Assembly (NCBI RefSeq): GCF_024346315.1
Contig: NZ_JAGQCS010000002.1
Coordinates: 124,001 to 188,000 of the forward strand
Reading direction: 5' to 3'
DNA from: Cyanobium sp. ATX 6F1
GTDB lineage: Bacteria; Cyanobacteriota; Cyanobacteriia; PCC-6307; Cyanobiaceae
Length of the DNA stretch: 64,000 nucleotides
The notes beneath the pieces were generated by a model. That model was not told the origin of the DNA. It made no database searches and saw only the letters and a list, made by a program, of their open reading frames with translations. Below are positions 10,322 through 36,515 of this stretch, in pieces (positions within the stretch are counted from its first letter, which is position 1; every line of letters begins with the position of its first letter). A program made the position numbers and the translations under genes.

Positions 10322-11279
10322 CCCCGGATCTGATTCCGCCCCTCAGGCGCCCAGCAGTGATGAACTTGATGACGCCACGCCGGTCAACCTCAAGGCGGCC
10401 TACGAAGGCTCCCAGGTGCATGAGGTGCTGGAGCAACTCGACAAGGAACTGATCGGCCTCAGGCCCGTGAAGACCCGCATCCGTGAAATTGCTGCCCTGC
10501 TGGTGGTGGAGCGGGCCCGCAAACAGGTGGGGCTGGCCACAGGTGCCCCTAGCCTGCACATGTCGTTCACCGGGCGGCCGGGCACCGGCAAGACCACGGT
10601 GGCCGAGCGCATGAGCCAGATCCTGCACCGCCTGGGTTACCTGCGCAAAGGCCATGTGGTCACGGCCACCCGCGATGATCTGGTCGGCCAGTACATCGGG
10701 CATACGGCTCCCAAGACCCGGGAGATGCTCAAAAAGGCGATGGGCGGCGTGCTGTTCATCGACGAGGCCTATTACCTCTACCGCCCCGAAAACGAACGCG
10801 ACTACGGCGCCGAGGCGATCGAGATCCTGCTGCAGGTGATGGAGAACAACCGCGACGATCTGGTGGTGATCTTCGCCGGTTACAAGGATCGCATGGATGT
10901 GTTCTACCAGAGCAATCCCGGGCTCTCCTCAAGGGTGGCCAACCACATCGACTTCCCCGACTACAGCGCTGAGGAGTTGTTATCAATTGCCAAGCTGATT
11001 CTGGCGGCCGAGAACTACCGCTTTAGCGACGAGGCCAACATCGCCTTTGCCGACTACATCCTGCGGCGGATGCAGCTGCCGTTCTTCGCCAATGCCCGCT
11101 CGATCCGCAACGCCATCGACCGGGCCCGCATGCGCCAGGCCAACCGTCTGTTCAACCACAGTGGCGGCGGATTGACCAAGCGCGATCTGATCACAATCGA
11201 AGCCAACGACATCATCTCCAGCCGGGTGTTCCAGGGGGAGGTGGAGGGCCTCGATCCGAGCCAGCCCCTCACCGGCTGA
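10305..11279 (+). CDS. cbbX: Rubisco activase CbbX (AAA+ ATPase)
   Basis: AAA+ ATPase that remodels inhibited Rubisco and releases tight-binding sugar phosphates. The protein has 324 residues. Walker A is GRPGTGKTT, Walker B is [10 protein letters not shown], and the pore loop region is near [15 protein letters not shown]. The N-terminal ~45 residues are variable and acidic. CbbX was first defined for red-type Rubisco, yet copies are common in cso loci of alpha-cyanobacteria. The ATG at 10305 lies inside the end of the acRAF gene (17-base overlap), consistent with coupling. A strong hairpin including its stop codon ends the block. Confidence 0.92.
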
Positions 11280-27231: not shown

Positions 27232-27305
27232 CGGGGCGTGGCGCAGCTTGGTAGCGCGGGTGCTTTGGGAGCACTAGGTCGCAGGTTCGAATCCTGTCGC
27301 CCCGA
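27232..27305 (+). tRNA. tRNA-Pro (anticodon UGG)
   Basis: Full cloverleaf: 7-bp acceptor stem CGGGGCG/CGCCCCG, D arm with AGCTTGGTAGCGC, anticodon stem GGTGC/GCACT (four Watson-Crick pairs then a weaker last position) around loop TTTGGGA with anticodon TGG, and T arm GCAGG-TTCGAAT-CCTGT. The discriminator is A, with no encoded CCA. It marks the left edge of the accessory block. Confidence 0.96.
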
Positions 27306-27318
27306 CTGCAGTCATAAC

Positions 27319-27347: not shown

Positions 27348-27412
27348 CTTTATCGCCATTTCCGGCAGCGTGAGCGCAAAATGAGCGCAAACTCACCGCA
27401 GGTCCTCTCGGT

Positions 27413-27619
27413 TCAGATCGGCTCCTCGATCACCTCCCAGCCCTGCTGCCGGTACCAACGCGCGATCTGGTTCGCCATCCCAGGCGGCACATCGAACACC
27501 CGGTGATCGGGGGCCGGCGCCTCGGCGTTCTTCCCCCTTGAGTCCAGCCAACGGCGCTCACAGCGAATCCGAATCAGTCCGCATGTCACCGCAGGGCCGC
27601 AGCTCTCAACCGTTGCCAC
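27413..27619 (-). CDS. Small protein at the end of the tail-protein cluster
   Basis: Unrecognised protein of 68 residues. GTG at 27619 lies within the 3' end of the upstream gene, so the two overlap by 14 bases, in keeping with the tight packing of this cluster. The C-terminal part FDVPPGMANQIARWYRQQGWEV resembles a compact helical tail with conserved aromatic residues. It is the last gene before tRNA-Pro on this strand. The reading is supported by overlap and composition only; a chance frame remains possible. Confidence 0.5.
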   Translation of the reverse strand: MATVESCGPAVTCGLIRIRCERRWLDSRGKNAEAPAPDHRVFDVPPGMANQIARWYRQQGWEVIEEPI

Positions 27620-28802
27620 GGGGCCACAGCACCCCAGTGGTAGGCCTACCGCCACCACCGCCCCCGCCACTGCCCTGCAGTTGCTTGGCATAGAAGGGGT
27701 GCTGGCGCACTCCAGCGGCGCCGATCGCCACCATGCTCCAGTCCGTCAGGAAGTCCGGTGCAGCAGCCGGCCCCATCGCCAGGGGCTGCAACGGTGCCAT
27801 CGGGCAAAAGCTCAACCGATCGGGCATCGTCGCCCACGGCAGCGAGCCCACCGTGCTCCAGCCCGCCAACGCCGCAGGCGTCCCGGTTGGCTGCAGGAAC
27901 CAGAGATCGGTGGCACCGCTGTACGCCGCCGCCAGCTGGTAGAAGGTACCGCCACCGGCAGGAGAGGCGGCCCGGCCCAGGCGGCGCGGATCACTGATCT
28001 GGTTGCTGCCCAGCCAGAGACAATCCGGCAGCGCAACCCGTGGCTGGATGGTGCCAGGAGCGAACACACCGCTGGTGGTGGTCGCATACAACCCGCAGCC
28101 ACGAATGAGTTGCTGTTCGCTGCCCGTTGGTGGCGGCGGAATCACAGACGACGCCACCATCGTGTTGTTGTTCCAGATGTAGCTGTTCTGCGAGTAGAAC
28201 ATGCCGACATAGGCGTTGGAGCGGTTGAAGAACACATTCCAGCCTGATGTTGCCGGTGACCTGAACAGAACCATCGTGTGGTTCTGCGTGTAGGTGTCCG
28301 CGCCGATCGGTGCGATCGAGTAGCAGAAGAACTCACGGCCTGGCGCCGTGTCCATCAGCACCAGCAGCATGGCGCCGTAATCAATCGCCGGCGATCCATC
28401 CGGCGCGTAATGGGACAGGCCCGCGTTGACGCTGAACAAGGTCGTCGCGAAGGTGCCGTAGCCGCCGTTGCTGCTGTCGTTGGTGTAGGCGCTCTCGAGG
28501 CCCAGTCTCAACAGAGCTGAGCTGGACGAGGCGCTATAGCCCTGGACTTTGCTGGTGTTGTAGAAGCTCAAGAGCACCGGATTGAGCGGATGGCCCAGGC
28601 GCCACACATACCCGTAGCTCGTTGCACCCGTTGCGGAGTTGTGATCCTTGACGATGGCCAGCGGGCAGTTGTTGCCGGCGTTGCCGTTCACCGCCGCCGC
28701 GAAGGCCGAGAAGGCCTCCGTCAGCTTCTGGCCTGGGTTGGCGGGCAGTGCGCTGGTCCAGTTCCAGGAGGCCCATTGCAGGGCTGAAGTGGCAAGGGCC
28801 AT
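27606..28802 (-). CDS. Phage-tail-like structural protein, unknown family
   Basis: 398-residue protein without signal peptide, rich in Ser, Gly, Asn and aromatic residues, as usual for beta-rich tail fibre or baseplate-attached proteins. The N-terminal segment LQWASWNWTSALPANPGQ and the VWRLGHPLNPVLLSFYN stretch show no enzyme motif. The end is a poly-Gly run before TTGVLWPRGNG. It follows three other genes of the same style on the minus strand, with a 33-base gap upstream and overlap downstream. The assignment rests on composition and on its collagen-like fibre neighbour; the exact role is unknown. Confidence 0.6.
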   Translation of the reverse strand: MALATSALQWASWNWTSALPANPGQKLTEAFSAFAAAVNGNAGNNCPLAIVKDHNSATGATSYGYVWRLGHPLNPVLLSFYNTSKVQGYSASSSSALLRLGLESAYTNDSSNGGYGTFATTLFSVNAGLSHYAPDGSPAIDYGAMLLVLMDTAPGREFFCYSIAPIGADTYTQNHTMVLFRSPATSGWNVFFNRSNAYVGMFYSQNSYIWNNNTMVASSVIPPPPTGSEQQLIRGCGLYATTTSGVFAPGTIQPRVALPDCLWLGSNQISDPRRLGRAASPAGGGTFYQLAAAYSGATDLWFLQPTGTPAALAGWSTVGSLPWATMPDRLSFCPMAPLQPLAMGPAAAPDFLTDWSMVAIGAAGVRQHPFYAKQLQGSGGGGGGGRPTTGVLWPRGNG

Positions 28803-28835
28803 GGGGAAGAACTGCGCTGGGAGCTGGTAGTGGGT

Positions 28836-29711
28836 TCAGGTGGTGGGATTAACGACCCGCACCGCCAGGCGCGAGGGGCCGAGTTGCAGCCATTCGCTGC
28901 CGTCAGCCGCCTTGAAATAGCCGAGGTTGGAGAAGGTGCGGTTGTAGATCGCCAGGTCCTCCGGCAACACCACCGGATCCCACCACTGCACCGGCGGCAG
29001 TGGCACCACGTAGCCCACACCAGGCGTGATCGGGATCCACTGCGCTGGCCGGCTGAGCACAAACGGCGGGCCACTGCTGAACCATTCCTGGCGGAAGCCC
29101 CCAGACAGCAGCAGCTGCGGCAGGTTGCGGCTCCAGGCCACCGTGTTGATCACAGCGGCCATGTCGGTGTTCGAGAGGTGCCAGTCGCCGGTGGTGACGT
29201 CCTTGGCGATCAGCAGCGGCAGGGCCTGACGGTTGGAGAAGCTGTGCTGAGAGAGGCTAAAAGCAAAGAACTCCTGGCCCGGTTTCAGGCTCCAGGCCGT
29301 CGCCGCCCCAATCGGGCAGGGCTGATTCAGCGTGGCCAGCGTGTTCGTTGTGCCCCGGCCACCAGAGAGCAGCCCGTGGCTGCCGAGGCCGCCAGCGGGG
29401 TTATGGCCCAAGGCCAGCCCCACATGCGTGCTCACCGCCGCCGTGGTCGTGTTCATCACCCACTGGCTCATCAGCTCCACCGGCGAGCCGAGGTTCTGAG
29501 CCGTGAGCCGTGCCCGGATCGTCCAGCCGAGGAACCCGGGCGCCCCCGCGCTGTTGGTGAGCAGGGTCAGCAGCTGGCCGAGGTTCTGAGAATTGGCCGC
29601 ACTGGTCCAGGTGGCCAGCTCCATGTCCACCTGCGCCGCCATCACGCTCAGCGCACCCAAGGCGTTTGGCTCGTCACCACGGCGCGAAAGATCGCGGATC
29701 GTTGCCGCCAT
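28836..29711 (-). CDS. Phage-tail-like structural protein, related style
   Basis: 291-residue protein starting MAATIRDLSRRGDEPNALG. It shares features with the next downstream gene: an N-terminal helix (NALGALSVMAAQVDMELATW), then Ser/Asn/Gly-rich beta segments, and phrases like SLKPGQEFFAFSLSQHSF that parallel APGREFFCYSIAP in the neighbour. This suggests the two are distant paralogues. ATG 29711 overlaps the stop of the preceding gene (TGATG). Upstream frame to 29864 is not used. No enzymatic motif. Confidence 0.62.
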   Translation of the reverse strand: MAATIRDLSRRGDEPNALGALSVMAAQVDMELATWTSAANSQNLGQLLTLLTNSAGAPGFLGWTIRARLTAQNLGSPVELMSQWVMNTTTAAVSTHVGLALGHNPAGGLGSHGLLSGGRGTTNTLATLNQPCPIGAATAWSLKPGQEFFAFSLSQHSFSNRQALPLLIAKDVTTGDWHLSNTDMAAVINTVAWSRNLPQLLLSGGFRQEWFSSGPPFVLSRPAQWIPITPGVGYVVPLPPVQWWDPVVLPEDLAIYNRTFSNLGYFKAADGSEWLQLGPSRLAVRVVNPTT

Positions 29712-30133
29712 CAGGACGGCACCGTGTCGTGCTCGATCAGGGCCCGCACCGTCACCGTCGCCGCATGGGCCACGTTCAGCGCAGTCCTGATCCGAGCGAA
29801 GAGCCGCGCCCGCAGCGGCGACTCGCCGTTGGAGTAGGTGGAGCCCGGTGCGGGCAGCAGCCACGGGATCACGCCATCGAAGCTCAGATCCAGCAGCACC
29901 CCCGCCGAGAGCGGCGGATCCTCCACGATCGGCCGCGCCGTATCAGCGTTCCGCGCTTGCGCGCTCGCATAGAAGGTGATCCAGGCGGCGATGTCACAGC
30001 CCACCGCCAGGAAACGGCCATCAGTGCCCAGCTCCACGAAGGTCAGATCCAGCACCGACGGGGCGGTGACAGTCGCCGTGACCCGCTGCTCCTCCACGCG
30101 CCGAGGCGTGTCGATCCTCGCCACCCAACCCAT
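29711..30133 (-). CDS. Small protein of the tail-like cluster
   Basis: 140-residue protein beginning MGWVARIDTPRRVEEQRVTATVTAP. The even spread of Val/Thr/Ala and the mention-worthy VLDLTFVELGTDGRFLAVG and GVIPWLLPAPGSTYSNGE segments suggest a small beta-sandwich, perhaps an adaptor or chaperone-like piece between fibre proteins. Both ends overlap neighbours by one base (TGATG), so it belongs to one transcript with the collagen-like gene. I do not recognise the family. Confidence 0.6.
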   Translation of the reverse strand: MGWVARIDTPRRVEEQRVTATVTAPSVLDLTFVELGTDGRFLAVGCDIAAWITFYASAQARNADTARPIVEDPPLSAGVLLDLSFDGVIPWLLPAPGSTYSNGESPLRARLFARIRTALNVAHAATVTVRALIEHDTVPS

Positions 30134-31392
30134 CAGGGCACCACAGGGATCTTGCGGATGGCGCGGGTGGTCTGGCTGAAGGTCTTGCTGATCGGCCCCC
30201 AGGAGCCGTAATACCAGTCCTGGCAGATCGCCGTGGTGGCTTGATCCTCAGTCGAGGTCCACATGTTCCCCTCGAAGAACGCCTGAGCACCACCGATCTG
30301 AAACAGCGGGAACGCACTCTGCGGCGGGATCGACAGGCTGTAGTTCGCCGTGGTCACCGGCACCGCGTAAGCATTGGCGCCGAACCCTCCAGTGTTGCCG
30401 TCGGTGTTGTCGGGTTTGAACTTGCGGTACAGGATCTCCAGCTCGTAGAGCGCCGGCACATACCAGTCGCTATAGCCGCCGATCGTGAGCGCCCGCGCCC
30501 ACTGGGCAGCAGGGTGGCCGGCATCGTTGGCAGCGTTGCTGTTGGCAAGGCCATCGAACGTGCTGCTCGCCCCGGCCGTGGCCGTGTTGGCGGTTTTGAG
30601 CACCTTGAGAGCCTGACCGGTGGCCTTGGGCGCAATGATCAGCGCATGGGTGGCCACCCCATTCGCCGTAGCCGAGATCAGCCCGCCGTAGTAGCCGCCC
30701 TCGAGGGCGCCGCCGATCGCCGGCAGGTTGGCCACTGGAGTGCCAGCCGTGACCGTCAGCTTGTAGACGGTCCCCGAGACCGTGTCGAGGTACATGTCCC
30801 CGTCGATCTGGCCGGGGATGTTGGCCGGCGGCGGCCCGCTGCCCACAAACCAGCCCGTGCCACGGGTGCCCACCGCGCCAGCGGCGCCAGCCGCGCCGGC
30901 CGGGCCCTGGAGGCCCGCTGCTCCAGCCGCGCCAGCCGGGCCCTGGGGTCCAACGGCGCCAGCCGGTCCCTGCGGGCCGGCGGCTCCAGCGGGCCCCGTC
31001 GCACCAGCCGGGCCCTGGATTGCGCCTGCATTGACCCAGACGTTGCCGGTGGCGTCCCAGGAGTAGAGGGTGTCGCCCTCGTCCTGAACGATGTAGGCGT
31101 CACCCTGCTGCCGGTTCGAGGTCGGCAGCGCCGAGTAGGTGGCAACCGTGCCCTTGAGGTTGATGCCAGTGCCGGCCGCGCCTTGCGGGCCGGCCGGGCC
31201 GGACGGGCCGACTGCGCCTGCCGTTCCAGCCGGCCCCTGCGGGCCGGTGCTGCCGGCTGCACCGGCGGTGCCGGGTGTGCCCTGCGGGCCTGATGGCCCT
31301 TGCGGGCCGGCTGACCCGGGTGCGCCGGCCGCTCCAGCTGGACCAGGGCTGCCCTGCGGGCCAAGCAGCGAGCCAGTTGAACTCCAGGGCAT
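30133..31392 (-). CDS. Collagen-like tail-fibre protein
   Basis: 419-residue fibre. Gly-X-Y collagen repeats run from about residue 11 to 76 and again from about 127 to 180, with a non-collagen insert of ~50 residues between (SRQQGDAYIVQDEGDTLYSW-like segment, as in many phage fibres). The C-terminal ~210 residues form a globular head with GGYSDWYVPALYELEILYR, NMWTSTEDQ and WYYGSWGP, resembling DUF1566-type receptor-binding tips. Trimeric triple helix is expected. ATG at 31392 reads MPWSSTGSLLGPQG. First gene of the minus-strand cluster. Confidence 0.82.
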   Translation of the reverse strand: MPWSSTGSLLGPQGSPGPAGAAGAPGSAGPQGPSGPQGTPGTAGAAGSTGPQGPAGTAGAVGPSGPAGPQGAAGTGINLKGTVATYSALPTSNRQQGDAYIVQDEGDTLYSWDATGNVWVNAGAIQGPAGATGPAGAAGPQGPAGAVGPQGPAGAAGAAGLQGPAGAAGAAGAVGTRGTGWFVGSGPPPANIPGQIDGDMYLDTVSGTVYKLTVTAGTPVANLPAIGGALEGGYYGGLISATANGVATHALIIAPKATGQALKVLKTANTATAGASSTFDGLANSNAANDAGHPAAQWARALTIGGYSDWYVPALYELEILYRKFKPDNTDGNTGGFGANAYAVPVTTANYSLSIPPQSAFPLFQIGGAQAFFEGNMWTSTEDQATTAICQDWYYGSWGPISKTFSQTTRAIRKIPVVP

Positions 31393-31527
31393 CGAGGGCG
31401 GGCCGAATCACGTCACCAGCTATTGCCATGGGCAAGCCTGGAGGGTGGTGAGTCAGTCGCGGGGATCGCTGATTCGAGAGCCGATTCGTCCACGAGCTGA
31501 ACGGTCCACATCAATCACTGAAACGCC

Positions 31528-31578
31528 TCAGGTCAAGATGCTGGCGTCGAGCACCAGGCGCTTGCGCACCTTGCTCAC
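31528..31578 (-). pseudogene. Truncated PIN-domain toxin remnant
   Basis: GTG at 31578 overlaps the antitoxin stop, as in intact Phd/PIN operons. The 16 encoded residues, VSKVRKRLVLDASILT, match the first beta-strand of a PIN nuclease (hydrophobic strand plus the first catalytic Asp in LDAS), after which a TGA ends the frame at 31528. No continuation is visible downstream, so the toxin appears cut off at the border of the tail-protein cluster. Confidence 0.65.
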
Positions 31579-31850
31579 GCCTTCTTCCTGGCGCCCCGGG
31601 TCTGCCGCTGACGCCACCCCTTGAAGTCAGTGGCCAAGTCTTCTTCAGAGAGGCCGAGGCGCAGAAGCTCAGCCTGCATCTGACGGCTGGCCTCGATCAG
31701 CTGCTCCCGTTCGCTGAGATCAGGGTGCTGCGGCAGTGGAACGTAGAGGCCGATCGTGCGGCCGTGGCGGGTCACCTCGATCGGCGTCGAGGTTTCCAGA
31801 TGAGAGGAGAGCTGTGCCCTGAGCTCCCGGATGCCCACACGGCTCGCCAT
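31575..31850 (-). CDS. Phd/YefM-family antitoxin
   Basis: 91-residue antitoxin. The DNA-binding N-terminus MASRVGIRELRAQLSSHLE followed by PIEVTRHGRTIGLYVPL is typical of Phd/YefM. The C-terminal helix with basic residues would neutralise the toxin. Start set at 31850 by a GGAGG ribosome site eleven bases upstream; the longer frame to 31922 is rejected. The promoter region has an AT-rich TATGTACACATTGA stretch. Its partner toxin is truncated directly downstream. Confidence 0.85.
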   Translation of the reverse strand: MASRVGIRELRAQLSSHLETSTPIEVTRHGRTIGLYVPLPQHPDLSEREQLIEASRQMQAELLRLGLSEEDLATDFKGWRQRQTRGARKKA

Positions 31851-32070
31851 CGCCAACCTCCAATTCAATGTGTACATACTCTGGAGGCTGATCGGCTTTC
31901 CTCCGTGTTCGCGGCGGTGCAAGGGAGATGGCAGGCCCAGCCGCTTGGCCTGGCTCTGCCAGTGACCAGAAGCAGCGCTCAGCTTCTGCCGTTTCGGGCT
32001 GATCTGGGTGGCCTTGGGCGGTGAAGCAGAAGCATGATGCCTGTCGATTTTGACTCAAGAGGGCTAGGTT

Positions 32071-32086
32071 TGATGCAAATGCATCA
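32071..32086 (+). promoter_or_regulatory. Palindromic operator before the Xre/RES pair
   Basis: TGATGCAAATGCATCA, a perfect 6-bp inverted repeat with 4-base spacer, ends six bases before the antitoxin ATG. A TTGACT (32050-32055) lies upstream as a possible -35. Autorepression by the Xre-type antitoxin would be the natural reading. Confidence 0.6.
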
Positions 32087-32091
32087 GATCT

Positions 32092-32478
32092 ATGCCCCTT
32101 GTTGATCGCTCGCCACCAGTCGCCGCCTCAGCGGATCCGCTCACCGACGCCCAGCTTCTGCTCCAGGCGGTGGTGCGGGCTGCGGAAGAACTGGATCTGA
32201 GCCGCTTCGCCCTGGCGCGGGTGCTGGGACGTGACCGTTCGCTCTTTGGCCGTGGCAAAGGGATTGACCCGCTCTCCAAGACCGGCGAGCTGGCGCTGTT
32301 AGTGGTGCGTCTTTATCGCAGCCTGGCGGTGCTGGTGGGCAACGACCCTGCTCAGATGCGCCACTGGTTTCATACCGCCAACCGCCACACCGGCGGCGTC
32401 CCGGCCGAGCAGGTGCAGCGCACCGAGGCGCTGGTGGAGATCGTGCAGTACCTCGATGCCATGCGCGCCAGGATCTGA
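32092..32478 (+). CDS. Xre/MbcA/ParS-type antitoxin (DUF2384)
   Basis: 128-residue protein: an N-terminal helix-turn-helix (LLQAVVRAAEELDLSRFALARVLG) and a C-terminal toxin-binding domain (LVVRLYRSLAVLVGNDPAQMRHWFHTANRHTGG, of which the RSL, WF and N-GG pattern are diagnostic). The domain order and its position five bases before a RES gene identify the antitoxin of an Xre/RES module. It likely represses its own promoter through the palindrome directly upstream. Confidence 0.87.
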   Translation: MPLVDRSPPVAASADPLTDAQLLLQAVVRAAEELDLSRFALARVLGRDRSLFGRGKGIDPLSKTGELALLVVRLYRSLAVLVGNDPAQMRHWFHTANRHTGGVPAEQVQRTEALVEIVQYLDAMRARI

Positions 32479-32483
32479 GCGCG

Positions 32484-33233
32484 ATGGATCTGCTCGCCAT
32501 CGCCCAGGCCGCCGCGGTTGTGCCCTTGAAGGGAACGGTGCTGCGGCTGGTGCAGCCGCAGGGCATCGACACGCTTGGCCCCCTGGTGGATGACCTCGAG
32601 CAGCTGGCGCGTCTGGAGGCCCTGGTGGAAACCAGCAAGCCCCCGTTGCCCTCCTTCTCACAGCGCACTCCCAGTCATCCACTGCTCACCACCCCGTTCC
32701 GCTATCCCCCCCTGCCCCATGGTTCGCGCTTTGGAGGGCGGGAGCACAGGGGGATGTTTTATGGCTCCCGCAGCCGCTCTGGATCGCTGGTGGAAGGGGC
32801 TTACTACGCCCTGCTGTTCTGGGAGGGCCAAGTGGAATCCCCCGCTGAACCGATTCGCCGCCGCCAAGCCCTGTTCTCGGTGGAGATCGACACCAGCCGC
32901 GGACTGCAGCTGCAGAAGCTTGCCGTCGCCGGCGCCCAGGCCGCACTGCGCGACCCGCGTCACTACGGAGCCAGCCAACGGCTGGGGGACTGGATGCGTG
33001 AGGCCGCCATCGAGGCGTTTGAGTACCTCAGCGCCCGCTCCAGAGAGCCGTTGGTCCAGGTGGGGGTGTTCACCCCGGCGGCCCTCGGCTCCCCGCCCTT
33101 TGATCAGGTGGAGATCACCTGCGAGATCTGCGCTGATCACGCCTCCTTCTTGAGCCATGACGATGGGCGGATCCATCGCTATGCCAGGGAGTTGTTTCTG
33201 GTCGATGGGGAGCTGCCGCAGGCGGCCAACTGA
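32484..33233 (+). CDS. RES-domain toxin
   Basis: 249-residue RES toxin; characterised members consume NAD+ and stop growth. The RES fold signature is seen in FRYPPLPHGSRF, REHRGMFYGSRS and GSLVEGAYYALLFW, with conserved Arg, Tyr, Glu and Ser residues in the expected order. The gene lies five bases after its antitoxin. It appears complete, so the antitoxin should be needed for viability. Confidence 0.87.
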   Translation: MDLLAIAQAAAVVPLKGTVLRLVQPQGIDTLGPLVDDLEQLARLEALVETSKPPLPSFSQRTPSHPLLTTPFRYPPLPHGSRFGGREHRGMFYGSRSRSGSLVEGAYYALLFWEGQVESPAEPIRRRQALFSVEIDTSRGLQLQKLAVAGAQAALRDPRHYGASQRLGDWMREAAIEAFEYLSARSREPLVQVGVFTPAALGSPPFDQVEITCEICADHASFLSHDDGRIHRYARELFLVDGELPQAAN

Positions 33234-33239
33234 ACCCGG

Positions 33240-33949
33240 CGCTCAAGCCGGTCCTGTTTAGGCCAGGAGGCCGTATGAAGGTAATCGGCCATACCCCAAT
33301 GTCACCGTCAATGGCCGCGACGTGAAACCCCTGGCCCAAAAGGGTTGGGGCTCAGGGGATCCGCAGTGTCCACGGCGGGGCAAGGGCGGCGCGAGTCGCT
33401 GACGCGACCCTTGCCCTCGCCGTGGTGGCCCTGCGTGTCCATCGACCACTCGGCATGTCCATCCATCTTCTGCTGATCTCCCGCGAGGAGCGTCCGAGCC
33501 ACGCCTTCTCGCGCATCCGCCTGGTCATCGCGCCCACGCCAGATCTCGATCACACCCTGCTGAGTTGCGTGGTCGGGTGTCCGCCAGAGGAGCTGGAATT
33601 CACGCGAGTGGGCCCTGTTGAAGTGGCCCATGGCGGCCAGTGGGCCAAGAAACGCCAGCTCGATTCCCTGCACTGGCCGTTCCTCGATCAGCCCGCATCG
33701 ATGGCACCCTCGCCGTCGCCCTGCAGCGGGGCTCATCCGGGGCCGGAAAGGCGCTACTCGATCTGCTGATCGAGGCCGGAGTCAAAACCACCGGGGAAGT
33801 TCCGCGCTGGCTGCTGCGCAATCGGGAGATCGTGCTGCGCATCCTGGCCTCCTGATCCAGCTCCCGCCAGGCTGCGGCCGGGCTTCTCTTGCTGACTCCT
33901 GCGGGACAAGCCACCCAGAGACAGACTCGCTGGAGATCCAGCCGGTTCG
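33240..33949. other. Region with gene relics between RES and VapB
   Basis: About 710 bases without a confident gene. A plus-strand fragment around 33265-33400 reads as protein (NVTVNGRDVKPLAQKGWG) but has no start. A frame ending at 33855 (LQRGSSGAGKALLDLLIEAG...REIVLRILAS) is plausible coding sequence whose beginning is missing or shifted. Both strands of 33420-33740 stay open, and I cannot choose. Most likely this is degraded mobile DNA. Confidence 0.4.
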
Positions 33950-34186
33950 ATGCGCTCTGTCACCAAGTTGTTCATGAGCCACCGCAGCCAGGCCGTCCGC
34001 CTCCCGGCCCATCTGCGGTTTCCCGACTCCGTCCAGGAGGTGGAGGTCCGTGCCTGCGGCCAGGAGCGGATCATTGCGCCGCTCGGCCGCAGCTGGGACA
34101 GCTTCTTCCTGGGTGGTCCGACAGTGACAGGCGACTTTCTGGCGGAGCGGGCTGCTCAGCATCAAGGCGAACGGGAGTTGTTCTGA
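33950..34186 (+). CDS. Orphan VapB-type antitoxin
   Basis: 78-residue AbrB/SpoVT-type antitoxin: KLFMSHRSQAVRLPAHLRFPD is the swapped-hairpin DNA-binding part, followed by VEVRACGQERIIAPLG and the toxin-binding tail with WDSFFLGG and ERAAQHQ. ATG 33950 is used; ATG 33974 is possible. VapC normally overlaps the VapB stop, but here the frame after the stop gives only ~19 unrelated residues. So the toxin has been lost. Confidence 0.82.
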   Translation: MRSVTKLFMSHRSQAVRLPAHLRFPDSVQEVEVRACGQERIIAPLGRSWDSFFLGGPTVTGDFLAERAAQHQGERELF

Positions 34187-34215
34187 TTCGTCGATGGCCT
34201 CAAGTGGCGGCCACC

Positions 34216-34560
34216 TCAGGGGAGTTCCAGCCAGCCCCGTAGGGCCAGATCCAGGTCAATCAGCAGCTGGGGCTCCAGTTGCCCCACCACCTTGCCGAGG
34301 GAGCTGATCGGCACGCTGAACAGCTTGTCGACCATCAGCTGGGATGGCTTTTGCAGGCCGTTGCGTGCTGTTGGCTGCACGGGAAGCCGGACGAGGGGCG
34401 CCTCCACCAGGGTGCTGGTGAGCGGGCAGAGGGTGACGCTGGGATGGGCCTGCAGCCAGCGGTCGGCCTGGACCACCACCGCTGGTCTGGGTTCGCCGGA
34501 GTACACCCCCGGACTGGCCACGGTCACAACGGTGCCGCGGCGGAGCTCAGGCAGGCTCAC
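34216..34560 (-). CDS. PemK/MazF-family mRNA interferase toxin
   Basis: 114-residue endoribonuclease toxin. The family start LRRGTVVTVASPGVYSGEPRPAVVVQ (RG...PG...G..RPAVV) and the later TLCPLTST, VRLPVQP and PSQLMVDKLFSV are clear. The toxin frame starts 4 bases inside the antitoxin gene, as is usual. It lies tail-to-tail with the VapB orphan. Confidence 0.9.
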   Translation of the reverse strand: MSLPELRRGTVVTVASPGVYSGEPRPAVVVQADRWLQAHPSVTLCPLTSTLVEAPLVRLPVQPTARNGLQKPSQLMVDKLFSVPISSLGKVVGQLEPQLLIDLDLALRGWLELP

Positions 34561-34784
34561 GCGGTCCAGTCGCTCCAGTCGGGCATCTGTTCGCTCCAGT
34601 GCTGTTGAGGTTCCCGTTCGGCCAGCCGCTCGGACTGCCGGCGGGCTTCCTCGCCATCGCCATGGCGCATCAGGTATTGGGCAATGGCGTCTCGCACGCA
34701 GGCGCTGCGGCTCTTGCCGAGCTGCCGGGCCAGCTGATCGAGCTGCCGCTCGAGTTCCGGCTCCACCCGCACCCCGATCGCCAT
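34557..34784 (-). CDS. CopG/RHH-type antitoxin of the PemK pair
   Basis: 75-residue ribbon-helix-helix protein: MAIGVRVEPELERQLDQLARQ gives the strand and first helix, KSRSACVRDAIAQYL the second. The C-terminal tail (HWSEQMPDWSDW) is acidic and aromatic and should wrap the toxin. ATG 34784 is chosen over the longer frame to 35006. A small GAAC/GTTC dyad lies in the upstream region. Pairing a MazF-type toxin with an RHH antitoxin is common. Confidence 0.87.
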   Translation of the reverse strand: MAIGVRVEPELERQLDQLARQLGKSRSACVRDAIAQYLMRHGDGEEARRQSERLAEREPQQHWSEQMPDWSDWTA

Positions 34785-34929
34785 GATCCCCTGCTGTTGA
34801 ACGATTTGTTCTACAGCGTAGGGGGGATGGCGGCTCCCGGGCCAGCAGGTTTCGATCGATCCGCAGCTGCTGGCGCTGCTGACCAGACAGGGCGTCTCCC
34901 GTCGTCGGCCCGGAGGCGTTGCTCGCCGT

Positions 34930-34966
34930 GGCAAAGATTGACAGTCTTTGCCAGGATCCTTAGGCT
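34930..34966 (+). promoter_or_regulatory. parDE promoter with overlapping palindrome
   Basis: TTGACA (34938-34943) and TAGGCT (34961-34966) are spaced by 17 bases. The -35 sits in the loop of a perfect 8-bp inverted repeat, GGCAAAGA/TCTTTGCC (34930-34937 and 34945-34952). This arrangement suits repression by the ParD RHH protein; 33 bases separate the -10 from the parD ATG. Confidence 0.65.
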
Positions 34967-34998
34967 CGAAATCTTGAGAGTGGTCCCTGGACGTCGTC

Positions 34999-35274
34999 AT
35001 GACCATGAATGTCAGCCTCTCGCCTCAGCTCGAAGCCATGGTGAAGTCCAAGGTCGCCTCTGGCCTCTACACCTCCGCCAGCGAGGTCGTCCGCGAAGCC
35101 CTCAGGCTCATGGAGCAACAGGACCAGCTGCATTCTCTCAAGCTCCAGCAACTGCGACACGACATCCAGGAAGGCTTCAGTAGCGGGAAGCCGACCTCCT
35201 GGAATGCGGAGGAGATCAAGCAGGACGGACGCAGGCGCAAGGCGTCCCGCAGCACCGTCGCCCAGGGCGCGTGA
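34999..35274 (+). CDS. parD: ParD-type antitoxin
   Basis: 91-residue antitoxin. MNVSLSPQLEAMVKSKVASG and YTSASEVVREALRLME are the RHH domain of ParD; the remaining tail with SSGKPTSWNAEEIKQDGRRR neutralises ParE. Second Met (35005) is an equally good start. It precedes parE by 9 bases and lies behind a well-formed promoter overlapped by a palindrome. Confidence 0.9.
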   Translation: MTMNVSLSPQLEAMVKSKVASGLYTSASEVVREALRLMEQQDQLHSLKLQQLRHDIQEGFSSGKPTSWNAEEIKQDGRRRKASRSTVAQGA

Positions 35275-35283
35275 TCCGTCCAG

Positions 35284-35583
35284 GTGATTGTTCTCCAACC
35301 CCGCGCCAGGGCTGATCTAGCTGAAATCTGGGAGTTCATCGCCGAGGACAGCGACGCCCATGCCGATGCGTTCATCGATGTGATCGACCAGAAGTTTCAG
35401 GTGCTGGCGCAACAGCCCGGCATCGGCCGACGAAGGGACGAGCTTGCCGATGGTCTGCGCAGCTTTCCGGTGGGCAGTTACGTCATCTTCTATCTCAACG
35501 TTCCCGATGGGGTGCAGATCGTGCGGGTTCTGCATGGGGCCCGTGACCTGGAAACCACCTTCTGTGAGACAGCACCGGAATGA
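35284..35583 (+). CDS. parE: ParE-type toxin
   Basis: 99-residue RelE/ParE-superfamily toxin. LQPRARADLAEIWEFIAE, QQPGIGRRRDELADGLRSFPVGSYVIFY and VRVLHGARDL are the classical ParE motifs. ParE proteins act on DNA gyrase. The GTG at 35284 is the start. It looks intact. Confidence 0.9.
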   Translation: MIVLQPRARADLAEIWEFIAEDSDAHADAFIDVIDQKFQVLAQQPGIGRRRDELADGLRSFPVGSYVIFYLNVPDGVQIVRVLHGARDLETTFCETAPE

Positions 35584-35628
35584 ATGACGGAGGAACCATT
35601 CCTGCAGGGACTTTGAACGGCTCCTGGA

Positions 35629-35871
35629 TCACCAGCCTGGCAGCTCGTGCAGGTCCGCCACTGGTGTGGCCAACCCATCGAGGATCGACTCGCGCATCCC
35701 CGGGATCGAAACCAGGTGCAGGGTTTCCTGGATGGCATTCCAGTCGGCCTCCGAGAGCAGCACGGCATTGCCGCGCTTGCCGGTGATCTGCACCGGCTCG
35801 TGTGTGTCGCCGACCTCATCGATGAGGGCATACAGCCGCTTGCGGGCTTCTGTCGCGGAAATGCTGGCCAC
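35629..35871 (-). CDS. Orphan Phd/YefM-type antitoxin
   Basis: 80-residue antitoxin beginning MASISATEARKRLYALIDEV, with EPVQITGKRGNAVLLSEADW and an amphipathic C-terminal helix ending in HELPGW. YefM genes are normally followed with overlap by YoeB, but the frame after the stop here has no YoeB-like sequence and runs into parE, which is convergent. So the toxin is missing. Confidence 0.83.
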   Translation of the reverse strand: MASISATEARKRLYALIDEVGDTHEPVQITGKRGNAVLLSEADWNAIQETLHLVSIPGMRESILDGLATPVADLHELPGW

Positions 35872-35954
35872 CAGAGCAGAGCGTCAGGCACGTATGTCGA
35901 ACCGTACCGCTGGCGGACCTGGCAATGGGTTGGACCCGAGACCCCCTTGCCGCC

Positions 35955-36515
35955 ATGGCCACCCCAATGACCCCAGAGCGGTTCCAGGACCGCTGGGAAG
36001 CCTTCAAGGATGAGCCCCAGCAGGTGTCCGGGGTCTGGGGCCTCTACGACGCGATCAAGCAAGCCGACACAGGCGGTGTGATTCTCAGTGAGCAAGCCCC
36101 CTGGGCGCTCAAGTTCAGCGAGAAGCCACCGGCTCCCCCAACTCCCAGCGGAGGTCTCGATCCCCGTGGTGATGAAGAGGCCGGACTCGCCGGACCCAAG
36201 ATCGCCGCACCGGTCAAACCAGGCGATTCCTATCTGCTCGTTAACGACCGGGACCAGGACATGGAGGCCTACGACCACTCCGGTGCCTTCCTGTGGAAGG
36301 TGCCGTGTCTGGCGCGGGGCCAGGGGGCTGACAACGACTGGAAACACACCAACACCGACACCCCGCCGGGGCTGTATCGGCTCGGCCAGCTCTATCCCGA
36401 CTACGAGCAAAACCCCAGCCCGGCCTGCAGCGATACCGCCATGTCCTACGGCTGGTACAGCTTCGATCTGATGGAGCTGGAAAACCAGGAGGTCAAGGTC
36501 TTCCAGGAGCCCTGA
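35955..36515 (+). CDS. Hypothetical protein, possible truncated YkuD-like domain
   Basis: 186-residue protein. The second half, SYLLVNDRDQDMEAYDHSGAFLW, then TPPGLYRLGQL and MSYGWYSFDLMELENQE, resembles the first strands of L,D-transpeptidase (YkuD) domains, where a strand with a K/D-x-Y residue leads to a TPxGxY motif. The catalytic HG...S.GC part is absent: the frame stops at 36515 before it could appear. The first 80 residues show no family. ATG 35955 chosen. Possibly a pseudogene of a larger protein. Confidence 0.5.
   Translation: MATPMTPERFQDRWEAFKDEPQQVSGVWGLYDAIKQADTGGVILSEQAPWALKFSEKPPAPPTPSGGLDPRGDEEAGLAGPKIAAPVKPGDSYLLVNDRDQDMEAYDHSGAFLWKVPCLARGQGADNDWKHTNTDTPPGLYRLGQLYPDYEQNPSPACSDTAMSYGWYSFDLMELENQEVKVFQEP

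Follow-up and report, generated by a model that had tools for sequence, protein, structure and literature searches.

Fibre genes beside tRNA-Pro in Cyanobium sp. ATX 6F1 probably mark one end of a decayed phage-like element

How does a row of fibre-like genes come to lie behind a tRNA gene when no phage head genes accompany it? The locus in question lies in a 64,000-nucleotide stretch of Cyanobium sp. ATX 6F1 (G000:C2:124001-188000; hereafter the window), whose genome is a 2.96-Mb draft in 17 contigs. Four intact minus-strand genes, P1 to P4, form an operon-like row from 27606 to 31392, 300 bp from tRNA-Pro. No capsid, portal, terminase or integrase gene was found in the window, and the same search that detected no capsid gene here did detect one in relatives. 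The tRNA gene and the cluster comprise the following features:

27232-27306, plus strand: tRNA-Pro(TGG), whose 3' 43 nt (27263-27305) equal the core direct repeat (attL) of the element in Synechococcus SynAce01
27372-27391, plus strand: two GAGCGCAAA direct repeats, candidate arm-type integrase sites
27413-27691, minus strand: P5, a doubtful small ORF overlapping P4 out of frame
27606-28802, minus strand: P4, 398 aa, predicted to be beta-rich, a putative virion or fibre protein whose gene closes the late module
28836-29711, minus strand: P3, about 291 aa, a distant relative of P4
29711-30133, minus strand: P2, 140 aa, matching phrog_9627 (unknown function)
30133-31392, minus strand: P1, 419 aa, a collagen-like fibre with an Lcl_C/DUF1566-type tip

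The initial annotation had counted five minus-strand genes with phage-like overlaps. Four are intact, with 1-bp overlaps at P1/P2 and P2/P3 (a longer GTG start for P3 in the ORF list is an artefact), but the fifth, P5, is a weak ORF lying out of frame on P4; Cyanobium sp. Morenito 9A2 has it at 82% identity, but elsewhere it is conserved only in part, its C-terminus being kept in some copies adjacent to tRNA-Pro or att, and it is absent from a second copy of the cluster on contig C1. Homologues of P1 to P4 are intact in other genomes, and dN/dS against the closest relative, Morenito 9A2, was 0.17 for the P1 tip, 0.17 for P2, 0.27 for P3 and 0.19 for P4; these four are therefore real genes, and they are under purifying selection. 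The same comparison revealed no faster change in the fibre genes along the window branch. In Morenito 9A2 itself, P1 (L033 2377-3632) is split by a frame change within the collagen repeat, which is either true decay or an assembly error.

P1 had been described as a collagen-like fibre with a DUF1566-like tip, and both parts of that description held. The stalk matches Pfam Collagen (E=6e-14), and the tip resembles the C-terminal domain of Legionella Lcl, which was the sole PDB match of the tip profile (E=2e-4) and the best PDB match of its predicted fold (probability 0.97; model pLDDT 68); the corresponding family models matched below their cut-offs (Pfam Lcl_C, E=2e-4, 22 bits versus a curated 34.9; NCBIfam adhesin_Lcl, 44 bits versus 500). 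The remaining genes had been called related beta-rich proteins, in agreement with a distant domain shared by P3 and P4 (hhalign 95%, E=3e-8) and with the beta-rich structure predicted for P4 (pLDDT 74). A fold search with P4 produced no significant PDB match and only weak, unnamed viral matches, and no match to P4 was found in 50,697 phage records. P1 is probably a receptor-binding fibre, past or present, whose lectin-like tip would contact the host surface and may bind the receptor; judged from operon position, P2 to P4 would be virion proteins.

A second copy of the fibres lies in the same genome at C1:350765-354558, with 87% DNA identity to the window cluster. A headless tail locus elsewhere in the genome had been suggested as something to look for, and a second fibre locus does exist, but it stands directly behind a major capsid gene (C1:358849-359754) and further structural-type genes. 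On finding this capsid-bearing paralogue, we dropped a plain tail-fibre cassette or tailocin as an explanation. The capsid protein matches phrog_212 (E=4.5e-56), the NCBIfam epsilon15-gp7 type (175 bits versus a cut-off of 75), Pfam GP7, and capsid structure 3j4u, that of BPP-1; its nearest phage is P-SS2, at 41% identity. Past the capsid gene come a toxin-antitoxin pair and then a YkuD-type lysin. Portal, TerL, scaffold, primase and integrase genes occupy a packaging/replication module at C1:427863-456007 (TerL, portal and scaffold by phrog_38, phrog_145 and phrog_206), on the same strand and about 65 kb from the capsid module, with a BREX system in between. The ends of the C1 element are marked by a 47-bp tRNA-Gly repeat (342767 and 456135-456205), with an integrase; the 113 kb enclosed carry metabolic genes as well, and the events may therefore be nested. 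The BREX genes BrxC, PglX and PglZ (C1:368480-384307; L005) lie inside this interval and adjoin an ArdC-like gene.

To the right of P1, the window has these features:

31410-31427, minus strand: 18-bp repeat GGCAATAGCTGGTGACGT, the deletion junction, with a capsid-derived upstream flank and a P1-derived downstream flank
31467-31529, minus strand: 63-nt remnant of a PIN-toxin gene, from the toxin gene upstream of the C1 capsid gene
31575-31922, minus strand: orphan antitoxin, intact (core 31575-31851), 95% identical in DNA to the C1 copy
32092-33233, plus strand: Xre/MbcA antitoxin and RES toxin, present too at the Morenito 9A2 and SynAce01 loci
35925-36515, plus strand: truncated YkuD-type lysin, 185 of 246 aa

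The claim that the cluster stands without other phage genes was right for capsid, terminase and integrase but passed over this truncated phage-type lysin; the toxin-gene remnant and orphan antitoxin (31467-31922) and the att-like features beside the tRNA had likewise been overlooked. More small toxin-antitoxin-like ORFs lie at 33900-35900, between the remnant and the lysin.

In C1 and in Morenito 9A2, the 18-bp sequence GGCAATAGnTGGTGACGT stands just upstream of both the capsid gene and P1. The exact repeat occurs at three sites in the ATX 6F1 genome, two in the C1 copy and one in the window. Chance was rejected as the origin of these repeats, a reversed control pattern having given no match in the same genome. 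At the window site, the 40 nt upstream agree with the C1 capsid flank at 31/40 positions versus 10/40 for the P1 flank, and the 40 nt downstream agree with the P1 flank at 31/40 versus 11/40 for the capsid flank. The surviving repeat is a chimeric junction, the product expected of recombination between two repeats. We propose that recombination between direct copies of the repeat, the first ahead of the capsid gene and the second ahead of P1, removed the block reaching from the capsid gene to just before P1, and that the distal part (packaging genes and integrase) was lost from the window locus as well. Because the repeat lies ahead of both gene blocks, it may act as a late promoter, perhaps one read by the sigma factor that the element itself encodes.

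The window locus is orthologous to one in Morenito 9A2 (G001), where a capsid module and the same fibres occupy the same tRNA-Pro. The two align without a break between the tRNA and window position 31429, then once more at 31941-33724; the 6.8 kb of Morenito 9A2 skipped in between hold the capsid block.

The complete genome of Synechococcus SynAce01 supplies the attachment sites. One copy of a 44-bp repeat of the tRNA-Pro 3' end (11172-11215) lies 220 bp from P4, and the other (94878-94921) adjoins an integrase; the 84 kb enclosed by them include the capsid, portal and terminase genes as well as defence genes, and direct repeats similar to the window GAGCGCAAA pair stand at the equivalent position. 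Since the fibre end lies at the tRNA and a copy of the tRNA 3' end lies beside the integrase, the fibres mark attL of an element that has inserted into tRNA-Pro. Four more loci (L148, L150, L151 and L154) have the core, without the 5' half of the tRNA, between the fibre end and an integrase, as would be expected of tandem copies or an excised circle. Two contiguous Cyanobium elements (G434, G441) have a tRNA beside the integrase, and no second att copy was found in the stretch read. Within the 84-kb SynAce01 element, large DruE-like and DrmD-like helicase genes lie at NZ_CP018091 26125-47281.

Synteny with capsid-bearing relatives and the SynAce01 att repeats thus frame the cluster, and we put at about 0.9 the probability that it represents the fibre end, next to attL, of a phage-like element that integrated in tRNA-Pro and has since decayed, its capsid block having been lost by repeat recombination. 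A prophage remnant is well supported. The initial annotation had called the cluster the window's best candidate for an undescribed system, and had named adjoining intact morphogenesis genes as a finding that would speak against it. Both the C1 paralogue and the Morenito 9A2 tRNA-Pro locus have such genes beside these fibres, which leaves the undescribed system unsupported and bears out one of the annotation's three suggestions, the residue of a prophage. Several observations weigh against the remnant: the fibre ORFs are undecayed, the genome is a draft, and the window copy yielded neither attR, integrase nor empty site. The search for attR and integrase extended over the next ~115 kb to the right (to C2:268000), and there was no second 23-nt copy of the tRNA-Pro 3' end in the window or up to that point; the right-hand flank gene (TspO) does not adjoin tRNA-Pro in six relatives, and this flank is not syntenic.

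The lack of decay means that either the deletion was recent or the fibre genes are still in use. The latter would allow a receptor-binding cassette acting in trans: the block could be kept as an alternative receptor-binding set, built into particles of the C1 element or recombining with that element at the shared repeats, thereby changing host range. The intact ORFs, their low dN/dS and the unaccelerated window branch are consistent with this, the repeat upstream of both blocks would ease swapping, and in Synechococcus Tobar12-5m-g (G049) a P1-P4-like block is likewise close to tRNA-Pro and separate from the capsid module, whose fibres are different ones, which makes use in trans possible. Recent deletion accounts equally well for intact ORFs, however, and the Tobar12-5m-g P1 has no Lcl-type tip, while its contig ends near the block; we consider continued use of this kind unlikely.

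A comparison covered 80 capsid loci from named Cyanobium, Synechococcus, Vulcanococcus, Aphanothece and Aphanocapsa genomes, together with 34 close IMG/VR loci. Their genes recur in the order TerS-TerL-sigma-portal-H165-LysM-scaffold-H91-(holin, lysin)-capsid-D140-H239-H261-...-P1-P2-P3-P4; two or more of P2-P4 lie downstream of the capsid gene in 29 of the 80 and 7 of the 34, many loci being cut by contig ends. In all, some 110 capsid loci besides those of C1 and Morenito 9A2, from genomes of picocyanobacteria and from viral contigs, have a phage late module, and in many of them it ends in P1-P4. TerL, portal and scaffold are contiguous in Cyanobium FGCU6 and others, and FGCU6 and two others have contiguous elements with integrase, primase, helicase and ssDNA-binding protein. 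In intact relatives, an integrase and replication genes come first, and TerS, TerL, the sigma factor, portal and scaffold follow. Next is accessory DNA, in many cases with defence systems; after it stand the holin/YkuD lysin, the major capsid protein and decoration-like proteins, and fibres P1 to P4 with att in tRNA-Pro close the row. The gap between sigma factor and portal (C1 432744-435652; also G024, G036 and G434) is a recurring accessory spot with varied genes that resembles a defence hotspot; in C1 it holds a type IV restriction enzyme. Cyanobium sp. Cruz-8D1 (G435) has up to eleven portal matches and several capsid loci, an unusually large number of element copies.

The tail of these elements is elusive. 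The tape measure family PF10145 (PhageMin_Tail) was absent from 8 genomes, the control detecting it in S. elongatus, and PHROG tail matches among the unknown proteins outside the fibres were confined to a LysM-only match to a baseplate hub. The epsilon15/BPP-1 kind of capsid is a short-tailed one, so a short tail may well have escaped recognition, and because tail proteins may be divergent we speak of a phage-derived element rather than a proven tailed phage. It is conceivable, at somewhat less than even odds, that the cluster represents one terminus of an element from an undescribed family. Such Cyanobium/Synechococcus elements (about 30 to over 80 kb) would integrate at tRNA genes and encode a capsid; they would also have replication, packaging, lysis and lectin-tipped fibre genes and a large, defence-rich cargo, with no recognisable tail. 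They would be either temperate phages with a very short tail or none, or genomic islands that bear capsid genes, and recombination at their repeated late-promoter-like motif would trim them to fibre-only loci.

The separation of modules invites another explanation, in which capsid, packaging and fibre genes, maintained by purifying selection at separate chromosomal places, form a domesticated gene-transfer-agent-like system with the window as one locus. Capsid dN/dS is 0.07 within the genus (C1 versus Morenito 9A2), capsid and portal are 13-100 kb apart in several genomes, and no tape measure was matched. Set against this are the integrases, att repeats, replication and lysis genes, the several copies per genome at different sites and the sparse distribution, all prophage traits; moreover, the modules on either side of the gap are for the most part colinear, and in phage P-SS2, too, ~69 kb separate the portal from the capsid gene. 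Domestication of this sort is improbable. Least credible of all is a host adhesin or a contractile-injection/tailocin accessory cluster, as had also been proposed: P1 is like the Legionella adhesin Lcl in layout and tip, but synteny contradicts this origin, for homologues recur behind capsid genes in dozens of loci, the neighbours being capsid and packaging genes, and no neighbourhood read, in any relative, contained sheath, tube or baseplate genes; a tailocin would have these and no capsid, and the relatives have capsid genes. Lcl shares with P1 the collagen stalk and Lcl_C-type tip, but is a cell-surface adhesin, whereas P1 is encoded at the end of a phage late module.

Cyanophage P-SS2 is one of the closest known counterparts of the decayed element and its relatives. 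Its major capsid protein and TerL are each 41% identical, its portal is weakly similar, a sigma factor follows TerL, and it has an integrase and a tRNA-based att site. P-SS2 has a 325-nm tail and structural tail modules, and Synechococcus RS9917 carries P-SS2-like relic prophages whose parts are distributed over tRNA islands (Sullivan et al. 2009, PMC2784084), a scattering of modules shared with the present family; the tail modules set P-SS2 apart, as do the lack of P4 relatives among the phage records and the unmatched tape measure in host genomes. Of the traits of an HK97-fold, P-SS2-related prophage, the capsid is present in relatives and C1 and not in the window, with TerL, portal and scaffold in the same element; integrase and att repeats are present in SynAce01 (44-bp) and C1 (47-bp). 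The epsilon15/BPP-1 podoviruses are alike in capsid, but their tail and adsorption genes were not found in the element family.

Parts of the family have been seen before. phiSynAce1 of Synechococcus sp. SynAce01 was published as an 8.2-kb prophage at 65,524-73,790 (PMC6337551); this region covers the portal-to-TerL module of the same family, and the prediction left out the tRNA-Pro capsid/fibre module and the att repeats that bound the 84 kb. For Ca. Regnicoccus frigidus, short prophages of high coverage have been noted (PMC9716671), and unicellular picocyanobacteria are often said to lack prophages (e.g. PMC6157547). A search of the open-access literature gave no account of the family as a whole together with its att sites. 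An ordinary origin with a clear mechanism, a prophage remnant, has thus led from the window to a more interesting and poorly described element family, integrated, phage-like and widespread, with defined tRNA-Pro att sites and a second member in the same genome; repeat recombination offers a concrete route from full elements to puzzling headless fibre loci, and SynAce01, Morenito 9A2 and J7-Johnson are named culturable strains that could serve as induction targets.

Tycheposons and capsid-using satellites are tRNA-bounded, integrase-bearing picocyanobacterial islands with cargo; the present elements differ in encoding their own capsid, portal and terminase. The ATX 6F1 genome also holds a satellite-like island near tmRNA (G000:C9:5662-12349; L073), with no capsid genes nearby, in which integrase-like, primase-like (893 aa), TerS-like and TerL (41% to P-SS2) genes stand in a row.
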